In this document: piece by piece, positions 10,711 through 59,100 of the stretch
Layout of the letters: each line of letters begins with the position of its first letter
Position numbering within the stretch: position 1 is the stretch's first letter
Assembly: GCF_003121705.1 (NCBI RefSeq)
Contig: NZ_PYHR01000002.1
Coordinates: 2,852,001-2,916,000, forward strand
Direction: 5' to 3'
DNA from: Serinibacter arcticus
Lineage (GTDB): Bacteria; Actinomycetota; Actinomycetes; Actinomycetales; Beutenbergiaceae
DNA: 64,000 nucleotides
The notes under the pieces: model-generated
The model's database searches: none
What the model was told of the DNA's origin: nothing
Seen by the model: only the letters and a program-made list of their open reading frames with translations
Position numbers and translations under genes: made by a program

Positions 10711-10841
10711 CGCGAGGGGTTTCCGCACCGCCGGCGAGGGGGTTCTGGCGAACTGTCGCCGAAAACCCCTCGCGGGTGGTGCAGAACCCCCTCGCGGGTG
10801 GTGCAGAAACCCCTCGCCGGAGTGCTCAAGCCCCTCGCGGA
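10711..10841. repeat. Intergenic array of 22-bp-period units in both orientations (array A)
   Basis: The fdhD-regulator spacer contains two units in one orientation (GAGGGG at 10714 and 10736, spacing 22). Four follow in the opposite orientation (CCCCT at 10766, 10788, 10810 and 10831; spacing 22, 22, 21). The unit reads approximately AAACCCCTCGCGGGTGGTGC. The opposed arms could fold into a long hairpin. The same unit family occurs in array B at 37431-37546. No gene is visible in this spacer. Confidence 0.85.
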
Positions 10842-35307: not shown

Positions 35308-35318
35308 CCCACCGCTCG

Positions 35319-35383
35319 CGAGGCCTTTCGGGTGTGTCGGCGAGGCCCTTCGGGTGTGGTCGCGAGGCCTTTCGGGCGTGACA
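35319..35383. repeat. Intergenic array of three 22-bp units (array C)
   Basis: CGAGG recurs at 35319, 35341 and 35363, an exact 22-base period. The unit reads GCGAGGCCTTTCGGGTGTGG with small differences between copies. All three copies point the same way. The period and the GCGAGG opening are shared with arrays A, B and D/E, but the rest of the unit is a different sequence family. Confidence 0.85.
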
Positions 35384-52685: not shown

Positions 52686-53675
52686 ATGGACTGGCTGCTG
52701 AGGCCCGACGACACAGCGGGCAAGCTGCTCGTGATGGTGCTGGCCATCCTGCTGTTCGCCGGCGTGATGGCCCTGATCCTGTTCGCCGTCGACCGCTCGT
52801 CCCGGACGCCCCGGTGGGTTCTCGCCACCGCGTTCGTCGGACCCGCGATCCTGCTGGTGAGCGTCGGCCTGGTCTACCCGGGCATCCTCACCATTCTCAA
52901 CTCGTTCAAGAACACCAACGGCACCGAGTGGGTGGGCTTCGACAACTACGCGACCGCCTTCGGCGAGGGCGCGTTCCAGCTGGTGCTGCGCAACAGCGCG
53001 ATCTGGGTGATCGCCGTCCCGCTGGTGGCCACCGCGATCGGCCTCATCTACGCCGTCCTCGTCGACCGCACCCGGTTCGAGAAGCTCGCGAAGGCGCTGA
53101 TCTTCCTGCCGATGGCGATCTCGATGGTCGGTGCCTCGATCATCTGGAAGTTCGTCTACGAGTTCAAGCCCGACCAGCCCGGCGTCAAGCAGACCGGTCT
53201 GCTGAACCAGCTGCTGGTGTGGGTCGGCCTCGAGCCGCAGCAGTTCCTCATCACGCAGCCGTGGAACACGTTCTTCCTCATCGTCGTGATGATCTGGATC
53301 CAGACCGGTTTCGCGATGACGGTGCTCTCGGCCGCCATCAAGGCGATCCCCGACGACATCATCGAGGCCGCGCGTCTCGACGGTGTCAAGGGTGTCGGCA
53401 TGTTCCGCCACATCACGATCCCCAGCGTGCGTCCCGCCCTCGTCGTCGTCATGACCACGATCGCCATGGGAACGCTGAAGGTGTTCGACATCGTCCGCAC
53501 CATGACGGGTGGCCAGTTCGGCACCTCCGTCATCGCGAACGAGTTCTACACGCAGCAGTTCCGGCAGGCCAACCAGGGTCTGAGCTCCGCGCTCGCCGTG
53601 ATCCTGTTCGTGCTCGTGATCCCGATCGTCGTCTACAACATCGGTCAGATGAAGAAGTCGGAGGAAGTGCGATGA
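52686..53675 (+). CDS. Sugar ABC transporter permease (AglF-like)
   Basis: A 329-residue MalF-type permease with about eight hydrophobic segments, including an extra N-terminal pair typical of AglF. The EAA loop is IIEAARLDGVKGVGMFRHITIP, the contact with the ATPase. GGGGAG precedes the ATG by 6 bases. The stop overlaps the next permease gene (ATGA). No ATPase gene follows, so a shared MsiK-type ATPase elsewhere is likely needed. Confidence 0.92.
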   Translation: MDWLLRPDDTAGKLLVMVLAILLFAGVMALILFAVDRSSRTPRWVLATAFVGPAILLVSVGLVYPGILTILNSFKNTNGTEWVGFDNYATAFGEGAFQLVLRNSAIWVIAVPLVATAIGLIYAVLVDRTRFEKLAKALIFLPMAISMVGASIIWKFVYEFKPDQPGVKQTGLLNQLLVWVGLEPQQFLITQPWNTFFLIVVMIWIQTGFAMTVLSAAIKAIPDDIIEAARLDGVKGVGMFRHITIPSVRPALVVVMTTIAMGTLKVFDIVRTMTGGQFGTSVIANEFYTQQFRQANQGLSSALAVILFVLVIPIVVYNIGQMKKSEEVR

Positions 53676-54616
53676 GCTACCCCTCGATCGAGTCGACGTC
53701 CGTCGTCGACGACGAGGCGCCGGAGCCCGGTCAGAAGTCCACGGGTCGGGCCAAGCGCGCCAAGGTGGTCGAGCGCGCGGAGTCGGCCTCCTCACGACTG
53801 TCCTCGCCGTGGGCCTCGGGCGCGGCCATCCTCATCGCGATCCTGTGGACCGTCCCGTCGCTCGGCCTCCTCGTGACGTCGTTCCGGCCGGAGATCGACA
53901 TCAAGCGTTCCGGGTGGTGGACCGGCCTCGCCGGCCCGTTCACGATGAGCAACTACGAGAACGCGCTGTCGGGCTCGGGCGGGCTCGGGGCGTTCTTCCT
54001 CAACTCGTTCGTGATCACGCTGCCCGCCGTGGTCATCCCGATCACGATCGCGCTGCTCGCGGCCTACGCGTTCGCCTGGATCGACTTCAAGGGCCGCAAC
54101 CTGCTGTTCGTGGCCGTGTTCGCGCTCCAGGTCGTGCCGCTCCAGGTGGCCCTGGTGCCGCTGATCAAGGCGTTCGTGAGCCTCGGCGTCGAGGGCACGT
54201 TCTGGGCGGTGTGGGCGTCGCACGCGATGTTCGGCCTCCCGCTGGCGATCTTCCTGCTCCACAACTTCATGAAGGACATCCCGCCGGCGCTCGTCGAGGC
54301 CGCCCGGGTCGACGGCGCCGGTCACGTGAAGATCTTCTTCCAGGTCCTCATGCCGCTGCTGGTCCCGGCGATCGCCTCGTTCGCGATCTTCCAGTTCCTG
54401 TGGGTGTGGAACGACCTGCTCGTCGGCCTGACGTTCACCAACTCGGGCAGCCGTCCGATCACGGTGGCGATCGCCGAGCTCGCGGGCTCCCGCGGCGGCC
54501 AGTGGCACCTGCTGACGGCCGGCGCGTTCATCTCGATGATCGTCCCGATCGTGGTGTTCGTGGCGCTGCAGCGGTTCTTCGTCCGCGGCCTCCTCGCGGG
54601 CTCCGTCAAGGGCTGA
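53672..54616 (+). CDS. Sugar ABC transporter permease (AglG-like)
   Basis: A 314-residue MalG-type permease with six membrane segments after a 45-residue charged N-terminal extension. The EAA loop is LVEAARVDGAGHVKIFFQVLMP, and FLWVWNDLLVGLTF is the C-terminal family motif. Its ATG overlaps the stop of the first permease gene (ATGA), so the two subunits are coupled. A long hairpin terminator follows at 54641. Confidence 0.93.
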   Translation: MSYPSIESTSVVDDEAPEPGQKSTGRAKRAKVVERAESASSRLSSPWASGAAILIAILWTVPSLGLLVTSFRPEIDIKRSGWWTGLAGPFTMSNYENALSGSGGLGAFFLNSFVITLPAVVIPITIALLAAYAFAWIDFKGRNLLFVAVFALQVVPLQVALVPLIKAFVSLGVEGTFWAVWASHAMFGLPLAIFLLHNFMKDIPPALVEAARVDGAGHVKIFFQVLMPLLVPAIASFAIFQFLWVWNDLLVGLTFTNSGSRPITVAIAELAGSRGGQWHLLTAGAFISMIVPIVVFVALQRFFVRGLLAGSVKG

Positions 54617-54674: not shown

Positions 54675-54696
54675 GCTCCGCGCCCCCTGCCCCCTC

Positions 54697-54838
54697 GAGG
54701 GGGTACTTCCTGCCCTTCGAGGGGGTACTTCCGGACGTTCGCGGGGGTACTTCCTGCCCCGCGAGGGGGTATCCGTACGTTCGCGGGGGTACTTCCTGTC
54801 CCGCGAGGGGGTACTTCCGGACGTTCGCGGGGGTGATC
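54697..54838 (+). repeat. Seven-unit 22-bp-period array (array D), left of the AbiEi/PD-(D/E)XK gene
   Basis: GGGGGTACTTCC recurs at 54699, 54721, 54743, 54785 and 54807, with degenerate units at 54765 and 54829. Spacings are 22, 22, 22, 20, 22 and 22. Each unit opens TCGAGG, TCGCGG or GCGAGG, then GGGTACTTCC and a variable end (TGCCC or GGACGT alternating). Orientation is opposite to array E at 56061. It lies in the 323-base convergent spacer after the sugar transporter operon. Confidence 0.9.
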
Positions 54839-54939
54839 GCTGCCCTCGCGAGCTCTCGCTGGGGGTTGAGTCCTTGTCCTCACGACGGCGGAGGGTCACG
54901 TCCGCGGGGACGTGACCCTCCGCCGTCGTCACCCCGTCG

Positions 54940-55851
54940 TCACCAGGTGCGAGGGCGCACCGGGTAGCCCAGGGCGCGGCCGATCGACTCCTCGAACGAC
55001 GTGTCCTCGCCGATGATGCGCTCTCGAGTCGCGATCTCGAAGGCGATCGAGTGCACCCTCGAGATGTGGGTCCGGCGGTCGTCGTCGTGACGGCGATCGG
55101 CCTCGACCGAGTGGTGACGTCGGCCGTCGTACTCGACGGCGAGCCGGATGGCTTCGTAGAACGCGTCGAGGCGCCACTCCTGGCCACCGGCCTCTTGCAG
55201 GGAATGGTTGAGCGCGGGAAGCGGGAGCCCGGCGTCGAAGATGCGACAGCGCATCCACGACTCCCCGTGACGATCCGCGGCGCCGTCGAGGATGGGGGCC
55301 AGGTCCCGAGCCTGACGGAGCCGGGGAACTCGACGGAGTGAGGCGAGGTAGTCCAGGACCGGCTCGACGTCGACGGCTCGGGCACGGACCATCGCGTCCC
55401 CGGCGGCCAGCGCGTAGGGCCGCCAGAGGCGACGGAGCAGGTCCGACGTCGTTCGCACGGGTGAGGTCAGGGCCACGCCGTGGATGACGCGGGCGTCGTC
55501 GTCGGGCAGGTTGGTCTGCCGGACGGAGACGAGGGACGACGTCGGCCTCGTGCCGTTGTGGGGAACGAGGCAGTGGACGCGACCGTCGTGCAGGACGCCA
55601 GGGGGTCGGGTGTCTGCACCGTAGACCCAGGCGGCGGTGTGGTCGCTGATGACAGCACCGGCGGGGAGGACGAGCGCGACCGCCGTCAGGCGAAGAATCA
55701 GGTCGTCAGGTGCGCGAGAGTCGACGACGACGCCGCGCAGCATCCGGCGGACGGCCCCGCCGTCGTGCGCGTCACGCAACTGCCGCGGGCTGAGCCCGAC
55801 GTCGCTGCTGCGGCTGGTGGCGAACGGGAGGCCGTTGTTGATCAGTGCCAT
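54940..55851 (-). CDS. AbiEi-like winged-helix protein with C-terminal PD-(D/E)XK (DUF559/Vsr-like) nuclease domain
   Basis: A 303-residue protein. Residues about 15-60 resemble the AbiEi antitoxin winged helix (VGLSPRQLRDAHDGGAVRRML, RGVV), and the middle has the usual AVISDHTAAWVYGAD segment. The C-terminal domain carries the nuclease-type signature RLDAFYEAIRLAVEYDGRRHH, with Asp229 and Glu240-Tyr-Asp242. Such AbiEi-DUF559 fusions are frequent solitary genes in actinobacteria with no proven function. No AbiEii toxin gene is beside it. It is bracketed by two repeat arrays of the same family in opposite orientations. ATG at 55851. Confidence 0.82.
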   Translation of the reverse strand: MALINNGLPFATSRSSDVGLSPRQLRDAHDGGAVRRMLRGVVVDSRAPDDLILRLTAVALVLPAGAVISDHTAAWVYGADTRPPGVLHDGRVHCLVPHNGTRPTSSLVSVRQTNLPDDDARVIHGVALTSPVRTTSDLLRRLWRPYALAAGDAMVRARAVDVEPVLDYLASLRRVPRLRQARDLAPILDGAADRHGESWMRCRIFDAGLPLPALNHSLQEAGGQEWRLDAFYEAIRLAVEYDGRRHHSVEADRRHDDDRRTHISRVHSIAFEIATRERIIGEDTSFEESIGRALGYPVRPRTW

Positions 55852-56060
55852 GCCGCAGGATTGCGGTCGCGTGGGACGTGCGGTCGACCGCCGCGGAGAT
55901 CGGGGGAGACCGGGGCCGGCGGTCGAGGCTGGGGACAGTCGACGGTCCGAGAATGCTGGGGCAGAGACCGGCTGGTCGAGGAGCTGTGCAGCACGGCCGG
56001 GGGCGGCGTGGGACCGTCGTCGGGCAGGGGTGGGGGCGGACGTCGCCCCCTGAAGGGGCG

Positions 56061-56161
56061 GGAAGTACCCCCCCCTCAAGCGACGGGAAGTACCCCCTGG
56101 TGGGGCGGGAAGTGCCCCCTCGAACGGCAGGAAGTGCCCCTCGAGGGCGGGAAGTACCCCC
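56061..56161 (-). repeat. Five-unit 22-bp-period array (array E), right of the AbiEi/PD-(D/E)XK gene
   Basis: GGAAGTACCCCC or GGAAGTGCCCCC starts at 56061, 56086, 56108, 56130 and 56150, with spacings of 25, 22, 22 and 20. This is the reverse complement of the array D unit, so the two arrays form an inverted pair about 1.2 kb apart around the gene. The spacer 55852-56060 has no gene. Confidence 0.9.
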
Positions 56162-56184: not shown

Positions 56185-59100
56185 CTAGGGGCTGGGGTGG
56201 GCCGTGGCCATCAGGCGTCGGAAGGCGCCGAGGTCGGCGAGGGCCTGGCCGCCGTGGGGGAGCGCGTCCGTGAGGCCGGGGGAGTGGACGACGTAGGCCG
56301 CCCACTTGGCCCGGGAGATCGCCACGTTGAGGCGGTTCCGGTTGAGCAGGAACTCCAGACCGCGCGGAGCGTCCGTCGCCGAGGACGCGGCGAGCGTCAC
56401 GATCGCGACGGCGGCCTCCTGCCCCTGGTACCGATCCACGGTCCCCACCCGCACCTGCGTGAGCCCGACGGCGTCCAGCGCCGTTCGCACGCACGCCACC
56501 TGGGCGTTGTACCCGGCCACGACCATCACCTCGGTCATCGGCAGCGGCACGTGAGGCGCGAGCGCGTGCTCGTCGCCACCCGGCGTCCACGCCCGCCCGA
56601 GGACGTCCTGCACGATCCGCACGACCTCGTCCGCCTCCTCGGGGCTCGCCGTCGAGCTGCCGCGGTGCGACACCAGCCGTCGGTGCACGCCGGGCGCGAT
56701 CCCGTCGAGATGGCGCCGCTGCGTCACCACCGGCTGCGGCAGAAGCCGGCCGTCGTAGCTGAGCGCCGAGACGGCGGAGCACAGGTCGGGGTGCAGCCGC
56801 CACGTCCGCTCGATGAAGTAGCCGCGGTCGGCGGGCATCGTCGCGGCCCCGCCCGCGATCCAGGACAGGGCGGACGTGTCCACGGCCTCGTCGTGCGACC
56901 CCTGCGTCACCTGAGGGAGCTGCTGCGGATCCCCGAGCAGCAGCAGTCGCTGCGACGCGGTCGACGCGGCGAGCGTGTTCGCGAGCGAGAACTGCCCCGC
57001 CTCGTCCACGACGAGCAGGTCGAGCTCGCGATCACCGATGCGCTTGCGGTTGGTCAGGTCCCACACGGTGCCGCCGAGCACGCAGCCGTCCTCGGCGTGC
57101 TCGGCCAGGAACCGGGCGTAGTCCGGCTTCGGCACGATCGTCCACGGCGGCGGAGCGATGCCGTTCGTCACCGTCGGCAGGTCCTTCGGCATCTTGCCCA
57201 CGCGGGCCTTCTCGAGCCCGGCCGCGATGACCTCGTCGAGCAGGTTCTCCACGACGGCGTGCGACTGCGCGACGACGCCGATGCGCCAGCCCCGCTCGCG
57301 CACGAGGCGCGCGATGACGCGCGCCCCGACGTAGGTCTTGCCGGTCCCCGGCGGTCCCTGGACGGCCAGCGTCGCGGAGTCGAGCCGCGCCGTCGCCTCC
57401 GTGATCGCCGCGACGTAGTCGCCGTCGACGACCGGCGGCAGCCCACCGCCACCGGTCAGCCGCGGTCGCCCGCGGCGCAGCAGCTCGACCCCGCAGCGCG
57501 GTTCCGCGCCCAGCCGCCCTCGGACCGCACCCGGGTCGACGGCGAGGCGCACGCGCGCGTCGTCGACGTCGTCGCCGTTCTCACGACCGGACGCCGCCGC
57601 CACGAGCTCGCCCCCGGTCACGCCGGCGACCTCCTCGGCCAGGTGCTCGAGGACCTCCTCGATCGACCGCGTCGGGATCGGTGGCCCCGGGACGAGCGCG
57701 ACCGGCGTCGCCGTCAGTCCGTCGGGGCCGAGCGCGAACGGCGCCGGCGCGCCCTCGCGCACCACGACAGCCGCCCGGGTCCCGTCGGCCGAGACCTCCA
57801 CCTCCTCGACGTTCGCGCGGGTCGTCGCGTAGGCGGCGCCCGACCCGACGACGAGCCCCTCGGCCTCCCGCACCGCGTAGACCAGGAAGCCCTCGCGCAG
57901 CCCCTCGGGGGAGCTGCCCGGCCCGAGGTCGCCGGTCAGGCGCAGCGTGCGTGACTGCCGCGTCGATCCCCCGGACCACCCGGTGAGCGTCTCGCAGCCG
58001 ACCGGGGAGTCGTCGACGACGAGCACGTCCCGCGTCTCGGCCCACCAGTCGAGCGGCAGCGTGAGCCGGTCGAAGTGCGCCCGCCAGACGGGGGCGTCCT
58101 CGCGTCGGTGGTAGTCCAGCGCGGCCGCGAGCAGGGCGAGCGCCTGGTCGTCGGCGTCCTCGCGCGGTCCGGGCCCGGCCGCGTCGCGCAGCACCCCGGC
58201 CAGCCGCTGGCGCGGCGTCGGCTCGAACGGGTGCGCCTCGTCGAGGATCCCCGCGACGTCGGACTCGCGCACGGGGGCAGCGGCCGCCGCACCTCGCGGG
58301 GCTCCACGACCTCGAGCCCCGGCTCTCCCACGGCCTCGGCCGCGTGCCGACCGTGCGCGAGCGAGCGCAGCCACTGCACCAGCCGCCGCGTCGAGACGCA
58401 GTCGTAGCGGTTGTAGCTCGCGAGCTCGTCCATCACGTGGGCGAACTCGGCCTCGTCGCCTGCCGCGCGGGCCGCCGTCGCCTCGGCGTAGCGCGCCACC
58501 GAGTCGCCGCCGGTCGTGACGCCGTCGAGCTCGCGCAGCTCCTCGCCCATGTAGAGAGGCTCGAGCTTCTTGATCGAGTAGCTGGCCTGCGAGACGGCGA
58601 CGGCGTTGCGCACCACCGGGAACAGGTCCACCAGGACCCCCTCGCGCGCCAGGGTCAGCACCGCCTCGAGACCCTCGCCGTGACGCTCGGCCAGGCGCTC
58701 GAGCGCCACCCGCTCGTAGTTGGCGTAGTGGTAGATGTGCATGTCCGGGTGCAGTGCGCGCCGGGCCCGCACGTAGGACAGGAAGTCCACCAGCGCGGCC
58801 TTCTCCTCCGCGCGGTCGTGCGCCCAGAACGTCACGTACCGCTCGGCCTCGTCGCCGTCCGCCGGCTCCTCGATCAGCCCGAACAGGTACTCGAGGCCAC
58901 CCTCCATGCCGCCGGAGACCGACCACATCGGATCGCCCTCGAAGTCGAAGTAGACGTCCCCCGGCGACGGCTCGGGCAGCGCCCGCAGCGACGCCGGATC
59001 CACCACCTCGTAGCGCACCACCGGCTCGATCCCGCGCGCCACCTCGGCCGCGGCACCGTCGGGCGCCGAGCCGTCAGCCCCCACCAGACGCATCCCGGGG

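Follow-up and report, generated by a model that had tools for sequence, protein, structure and literature searches.

Architecture of the locus

The region under study lies in Serinibacter arcticus (assembly GCF_003121705.1, contig NZ_PYHR01000002.1), in a stretch of 64,000 nucleotides (positions 2,852,001 to 2,916,000 of the contig, forward strand) hereinafter called the window. Here a solitary gene for a probable nuclease is located between two arrays of a short repeat in mutually inverted orientation, with the following features:

53672-54616, + strand: left neighbor, an ABC transporter permease gene (BPD_transp_1), which ends 82 bp before the first core of array D
54695-54842, + strand: array D, seven units (five exact cores) of the family-1 22-bp repeat, after the permease gene and in its sense
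54882-54929, no strand assigned: perfect 22-bp-stem hairpin, terminator-like, between array D and the gene (z of -9.6 as RNA)
54940-55851, - strand: gene for a 303-aa protein with an AbiEi-like part and a predicted Vsr-like nuclease part
56046-56161, - strand: array E, five units of the same repeat in inverted orientation, after the stop of the helicase-like gene and in its sense
56185-58272, - strand: right neighbor, an AAA_11/AAA_12 helicase-type ATPase gene, convergent, which ends about 24 bp from array E

In array D, the cores at 54699, 54721, 54743, 54785, and 54807 are exact matches to GGGGGTACTTCC on the + strand, and degenerate units near 54765 and 54829 bring the total to seven, with spacings of 22, 22, 20, 22, and 22 bp. 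Array E comprises five units on the - strand at 56061, 56086, 56108, 56130, and 56150, with spacings of 25, 22, 22, and 20 bp. The window contains 9 matches with at most one mismatch, against 0.15 expected from shuffled sequence. The two arms match each other in inverted orientation with a local-alignment score of 85, compared with maxima of 30 and 31 in two sets of controls. Gene prediction, based on a simple codon-usage script, called only one gene between the arms. Thus, the arrays described in the initial annotation are real.

Predicted domains of the protein

The N-terminal ~190 residues of the protein match AbiEi, the antitoxin of the type IV toxin-antitoxin system AbiE. Although the Pfam AbiEi_1 model scores below its cutoff (14.2 versus 22.2 bits), PADLOC AbiEi models match (best E value, 1.6e-9), as does the predicted fold: the AlphaFold model (mean pLDDT, 95.2) retrieves AbiEi of Streptococcus agalactiae as its best PDB match in Foldseek (E value, 1.2e-5), followed by Rv2827c (4.2e-5). 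However, the TM-scores to AbiEi over the whole model are modest (0.32 by query, 0.46 by target). The assignment of the C-terminal part as a nuclease rests on predicted structure and conserved residues, as Pfam MTES_1575 is likewise below its cutoff (14 versus 38.2 bits). The C-terminal 114 residues (pLDDT, 90.7) resemble the Vsr-like nucleases PvuRts1I, AbaSI, and I-Bth0305I, with a TM-score of 0.68 by target for the last (probability, 0.82), but the E values are weak (0.44 for I-Bth0305I), with none below 0.001 and the best, 0.025, being for a mitoribosome chain. Residues E197, D229, E240, and H247 are invariant in 24 of 24 rows of the nuclease alignment and D242 nearly so; that these are catalytic is inferred from Vsr-like motifs. 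No intron or partner methyltransferase was noticed, though these were not searched for as such. AbiEi binds two 23-bp inverted repeats and Rv2827c binds four (PMC7319586). No adjacent AbiEii toxin was found among the neighbors scanned: both neighbors of the window gene, both of the Aeromicrobium homolog described below, both of one of the two closest homologs in the genome, and one of the other have other Pfam domains.

Three repeat families in one genome

The 4.06-Mb genome contains 84 cores with at most one mismatch to GGGGGTACTTCC, 45 of them exact, against 20 for the reversed control. In the stretches retrieved they form 21 arrays, and the scanned neighbors are ordinary genes, among them those for ribosomal protein S20, DNA polymerase III delta, TsaD, and SufE. 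The 22-bp consensus is close to GGGGGTACTTCCCGCCCCTCGA. Among 97 units, which were picked by positions 1 to 12, positions 14 and 16 are nearly invariant, whereas 13 and 21 are free. A possible stem within the unit is broken by G at position 17 in 26 of these 97 units. Searches for the exact family-1 pair pattern recovered it in almost no relative: 1 of 3 genus, 2 of 24 family, 2 of 396 order, and 2 of 394 class genomes, with the genome itself included each time and the other two hits being single and likely due to chance. These surveys missed the phenomenon because the unit differs from homolog to homolog.

Indeed, the two closest homologs in the same genome (50 to 51% identical; loci L101 and L102) have no GGGGGTACTTCC nearby, but a tandem-repeat search of their flanks showed that each sits between inverted 22-bp-period arrays of another sequence, CGGCGAGGGGTTTCTGCACCAC for L101 (family 2) and TCGCGAGGCC(C/T)TTCGGGTCC for L102 (family 3). 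Both of these units are also dispersed, with 113 pair hits in this genome and none for the reversed control; in the other 23 family genomes, there are only 6 hits in G023, which represent its own variant unit, and 1 in G002. Hence, this genome has three repeat families and three close homologs, each beside its own family. Dispersed copies of families 2 and 3 also occur within the window:

10712-10838, no strand assigned: facing pair of family-2 units
35318-35377, + strand: array of family-3 units, about 10 bp after a stop codon
37430-37547, no strand assigned: family-2 arrays, here pointing outward

In a 400-kb sample of the genome, placed by hand away from stretches already retrieved, tandem-repeat search found three intergenic 22-bp-period arrays within 3 mismatches of a known unit, all of family 2, while one 22-bp call (L322) and a few 21-bp calls (L311 and L312) fit none. 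Another 22-bp-period array of unknown family (TCCCCGCCCGGCCGCCCGACCC, about 6 copies) is found in G002 (L094:11287-11415). More distant DUF559-type genes in the S. arcticus genome (at about 3840726, 1393279, 2967331, and 3602605) are also flanked by matching repeats (scores of 47, 79, 62, and 63; a further one, L008, scores 35), but these are of another type, most looking like compact 54- to 72-bp palindromes, one on each side, closer to classical REPs, although their dispersal was not shown.

Association of the homologs with inverted repeats

A scan of GTDB contigs for the family-1 pair yielded five stretches, of which two belong to one Aeromicrobium MAG that lies outside the family, not being among the 24 family genomes surveyed. 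The other three (L029, L032, and L033) are AT-rich and come from an Ignavibacterium MAG and Aquiflexum; they share the core but are 21-bp palindromic arrays like GGGGGTACTTCNGAAGTGGAGG and were treated as a probable coincidence. The Aeromicrobium MAG has 40 cores with at most one mismatch, 10 of them exact, against 21 for the control, several as facing pairs. Several of these pairs are compact, bounded by sequences like CGCTGA...TCAGCG, with arm distances near 30, 52, or 74 bp, i.e., in steps of 22. One pair of arrays lay about 1 kb apart, and we predicted that a homolog would lie inside; the DNA between the arms was then found to code for an AbiEi-Vsr homolog of 316 aa that is 45% identical to the window protein.

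A profile of nine homologs matched 88 of 394 class genomes at E values of 1e-30 or below. We examined 91 homolog loci, namely, the window, the MAG, nine from the family, and 80 from the class; the last were picked by hand mainly from the top of the match list, leaving out some contig-edge and fragmentary matches, and hence are not a random sample, and orthologous loci among them are not independent. The local-alignment score between the left flank and the reverse complement of the right flank exceeds 40 in 75 of 91 loci (10 of 11, followed by 19, 19, 14, and 13 of 20 down the list), or 76 after correcting the gene bounds of a broken copy (L100), which then scores 64. In contrast, this was seen in 0 of 19 places 30 to 40 kb away (maximum, 30), 0 of 21 other convergent-flanked genes (maximum, 31), and 0 of 77 other genes, the last two sets being drawn from the same retrieved loci and so not fully independent of the 19. 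Of the 76 matches, 74 lie outside predicted genes, but 15 of 91 loci lack a clear inverted match even after the boundary correction. Among cross pairs of loci, 116 of 8190 exceed 40, and those above 45 include orthologous loci with homologous neighbor genes and loci with alike units; for the same reason, the own right flank is the best partner of the left flank in only 50 of 91. Further, the facing arrays at two loci, L272 and L277, enclose ordinary genes without homology to this one.

Regular arrays on both sides were recognized in 42 of 89 loci (two loci, L099 and L100, were not included in the motif search) and in 0 of 19 controls. The periods are 22 (24 loci), 21 (4 loci), 31 to 34 (11 loci), 26, 38, and 53 bp. 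In most long-period arrays, the spacer columns are poorly conserved while the spacing is fixed, an exception being L153, with 27 of 33 columns conserved. Although the first 14 columns in this analysis are biased by the seed, the spacing is not, and this is the pattern expected of sites phased near whole turns of the helix and not of a recent duplication. A homolog with a 32-bp period (L183, in genome G560) has a unit containing GGGCACTTCCGGCCCCG, close to the unit of the window, i.e., similar letters with different spacing. No homolog was found on plasmid (E limit, 1e-15) or phage (E limit, 1e-5) records.

Genomic context of the arrays

Of the 75 homologs with inverted-repeat flanks, 61 lie between convergent genes, 11 are in tandem and 0 in divergent settings, and 3 are at contig edges. 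For background genes, which include loci some of which carry these arrays, the split is 47 convergent, 149 tandem, and 49 divergent of 245. Of 96 arrays in the retrieved DNA of three genomes (S. arcticus, the MAG, and G023), 74 lie 3' of a gene in its sense (P value, 9e-8), at a median of 13 bp from the stop and with 57 within 30 bp; 43 are in convergent, 50 in tandem, and 3 in divergent gaps. The bias is clear for family 1 in S. arcticus (18 of 21), family 3 (27 of 36), and the MAG (11 of 12) but is not significant for family 2 (12 of 19) or G023 (6 of 8); some exceptions are the second arm of a facing pair in a tandem gap. The preference of the homologs for convergent gaps raises the remote possibility that convergent gaps simply collect repeats and that the gene is a bystander. 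However, the 21 other convergent-flanked genes have no matched arms, and the units differ from homolog to homolog, which disfavors this reading at the sample size used.

The 3' and sense location could also point to RNA-level terminators or mRNA stabilizers of the neighboring genes that have nothing to do with the nuclease. Family-1 arrays fold somewhat better than shuffled sequences (z of -2.6 and -3.2), and a facing pair of family 2 folds into a long hairpin (z of -7.8). Nevertheless, the seven other single arrays tested fold no or little better than shuffles (z of -1.5 to +1.1), and this explanation does not account for the association with one protein family in 75 of 91 loci. Hence, we rejected RNA hairpins as the general function and consider this alternative very unlikely.

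Concerted change of the two arms

Three groups of orthologous loci were compared, namely, the slot just after rel (RelA/SpoT by Pfam in the MAG; seven genomes; loci L296, L137, L138, L141, L144, L148, and L152), the L102 site (four genomes), and the permease-helicase gap (two genomes). Left and right arms match each other at every locus (scores of 40 to 111; 13 of 13), whereas corresponding arms of orthologs mostly score 10 to 31, with three closer pairs (L137/L296 on one side, L141/L138, and L099/L102), although neighbor proteins in the first two groups are 38 to 94% identical. Unit sequence therefore turns over while both arms stay in step. The element is present in S. arcticus and G002 but was not called in G006 and G023 at the permease-helicase gap, and an array of G002's own unit lies after metE, where S. 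arcticus has none.

Presence and absence at one site would be compatible with a cut-and-paste transposon whose ends are multisite arrays, like those of Tn7, which carry inverted arrays of TnsB sites with 22-bp repeats (PMC8649781). However, there is one close gene per unit family in this genome, the genes often stay at the same site in related genomes, most copies are gene-less arrays, and neither neighbor of the window gene matches a transposase in Pfam. Accordingly, this alternative appears unlikely.

To identify the part of the protein that might read the repeat, we compared unit similarity with protein identity across 40 loci. Unit similarity follows identity over residues 63 to 190 after controlling for the nuclease part (partial Mantel r of 0.23; P value of 0.002, the floor of 500 permutations), and the nuclease part adds nothing after controlling for residues 63 to 190 (r of 0.03; P value of 0.25), pointing to the AbiEi part as the reader of the unit. 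The N-terminal 62 residues correlate only weakly with the unit given the nuclease part (partial r of 0.10; P value of 0.02), and the nuclease part still correlates given those 62 (r of 0.11; P value of 0.008).

A proposed repeat-associated nuclease system

Several parallels are suggested by REP elements and their RAYT (REP-associated tyrosine transposase) genes: a solitary gene is flanked by inverted copies of a short repeat that is dispersed between genes, and gene and repeat coevolve (PMC2817692). The initial annotation had proposed a REP/RAYT-like layout with an unrelated protein fold, and this is supported and generalizes to the homologs. The GGGGGTACTTCC arrays are genome-wide, and only the window copy is beside this gene, but REPs behave in this way too. 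One point of that proposal needs to be changed: within this genome, the unit does not cluster near the other close homologs, because each has a unit of its own. The system is not a member of the REP/RAYT class, as the protein combines an AbiEi-like and a predicted Vsr-like part and the repeats are phased tandem arrays, here not palindromes with a GT(A/G)G head; single arrays of families 2 and 3, like the family-1 unit, gave no support for a palindrome. Moreover, the Y1/HUH transposase domain (PF01797) was found in neither of the two genomes carrying this unit (S. arcticus and the MAG), whereas the same search was positive in 5 of 14 control genomes. We found no description of such a system in the open-access papers searched, subscription papers and preprints being largely outside that search.

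Taking these findings together, the association of gene and inverted repeats is established by comparison, and we propose, with moderate confidence, that this locus is one member of a large family of repeat-associated nuclease elements, in which the gene lies between two inverted arrays of what is probably its protein's own binding site. No binding, cutting, or transposition was observed, no target-site duplication was established, and the mechanism is therefore inferred: the AbiEi part might bind each unit, with a spacing of about 2 or 3 helical turns letting protomers stack on one face of each arm, while the nuclease part might nick or cut at bound arms, with repair of these breaks copying arms between sites. 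Such copying would homogenize the two arms and the dispersed arrays and would plant new arrays at gene 3' ends, where insertion does little harm. Dispersed arrays would then be nonautonomous copies served in trans by the single gene. Against this reading, the gene itself seems to move rarely.

A less likely alternative is that the protein is a resident regulator or insulator that binds the arrays as an AbiEi-type operator system, either for autoregulation or as a roadblock between convergent genes, with the nuclease acting in defense and the arrays spreading by ordinary recombination and not by the protein. In its favor, AbiEi relatives autoregulate through 23-bp inverted repeats (PMC7319586), the genes stay at the same site across genomes, and few arrays (3 of 96) lie in divergent, i.e., promoter, gaps. 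However, an operator needs few sites upstream, not arrays on both sides plus dozens of dispersed ones after unrelated genes, and the concerted change of both arms needs a copying process.

In its strongest form, which we regard as about as likely as not, our proposal would imply a new class of self-spreading repeat system, common in Actinomycetia, in which AbiEi-Vsr nucleases each bind their own helically phased site and, by cutting and templated repair, copy arrays of it to gene 3' ends. In this case, protein and repeat would evolve together fast enough that orthologous loci in related genomes carry different units, and a single genome could run three such systems side by side without cross talk. 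Dispersed short repeats are common in bacteria, and RAYT is probably the main case in which an enzyme has been tied to them. A second, unrelated enzyme with the same layout would show that repeat-tending nucleases arose more than once and would put a candidate role on a group of DUF559/AbiEi-like proteins that the NCBIfam models did not name in the 5 proteins scanned. Dozens of natural protein-site pairs with differing units and spacings would also make the DNA recognition code of the AbiEi fold directly testable.
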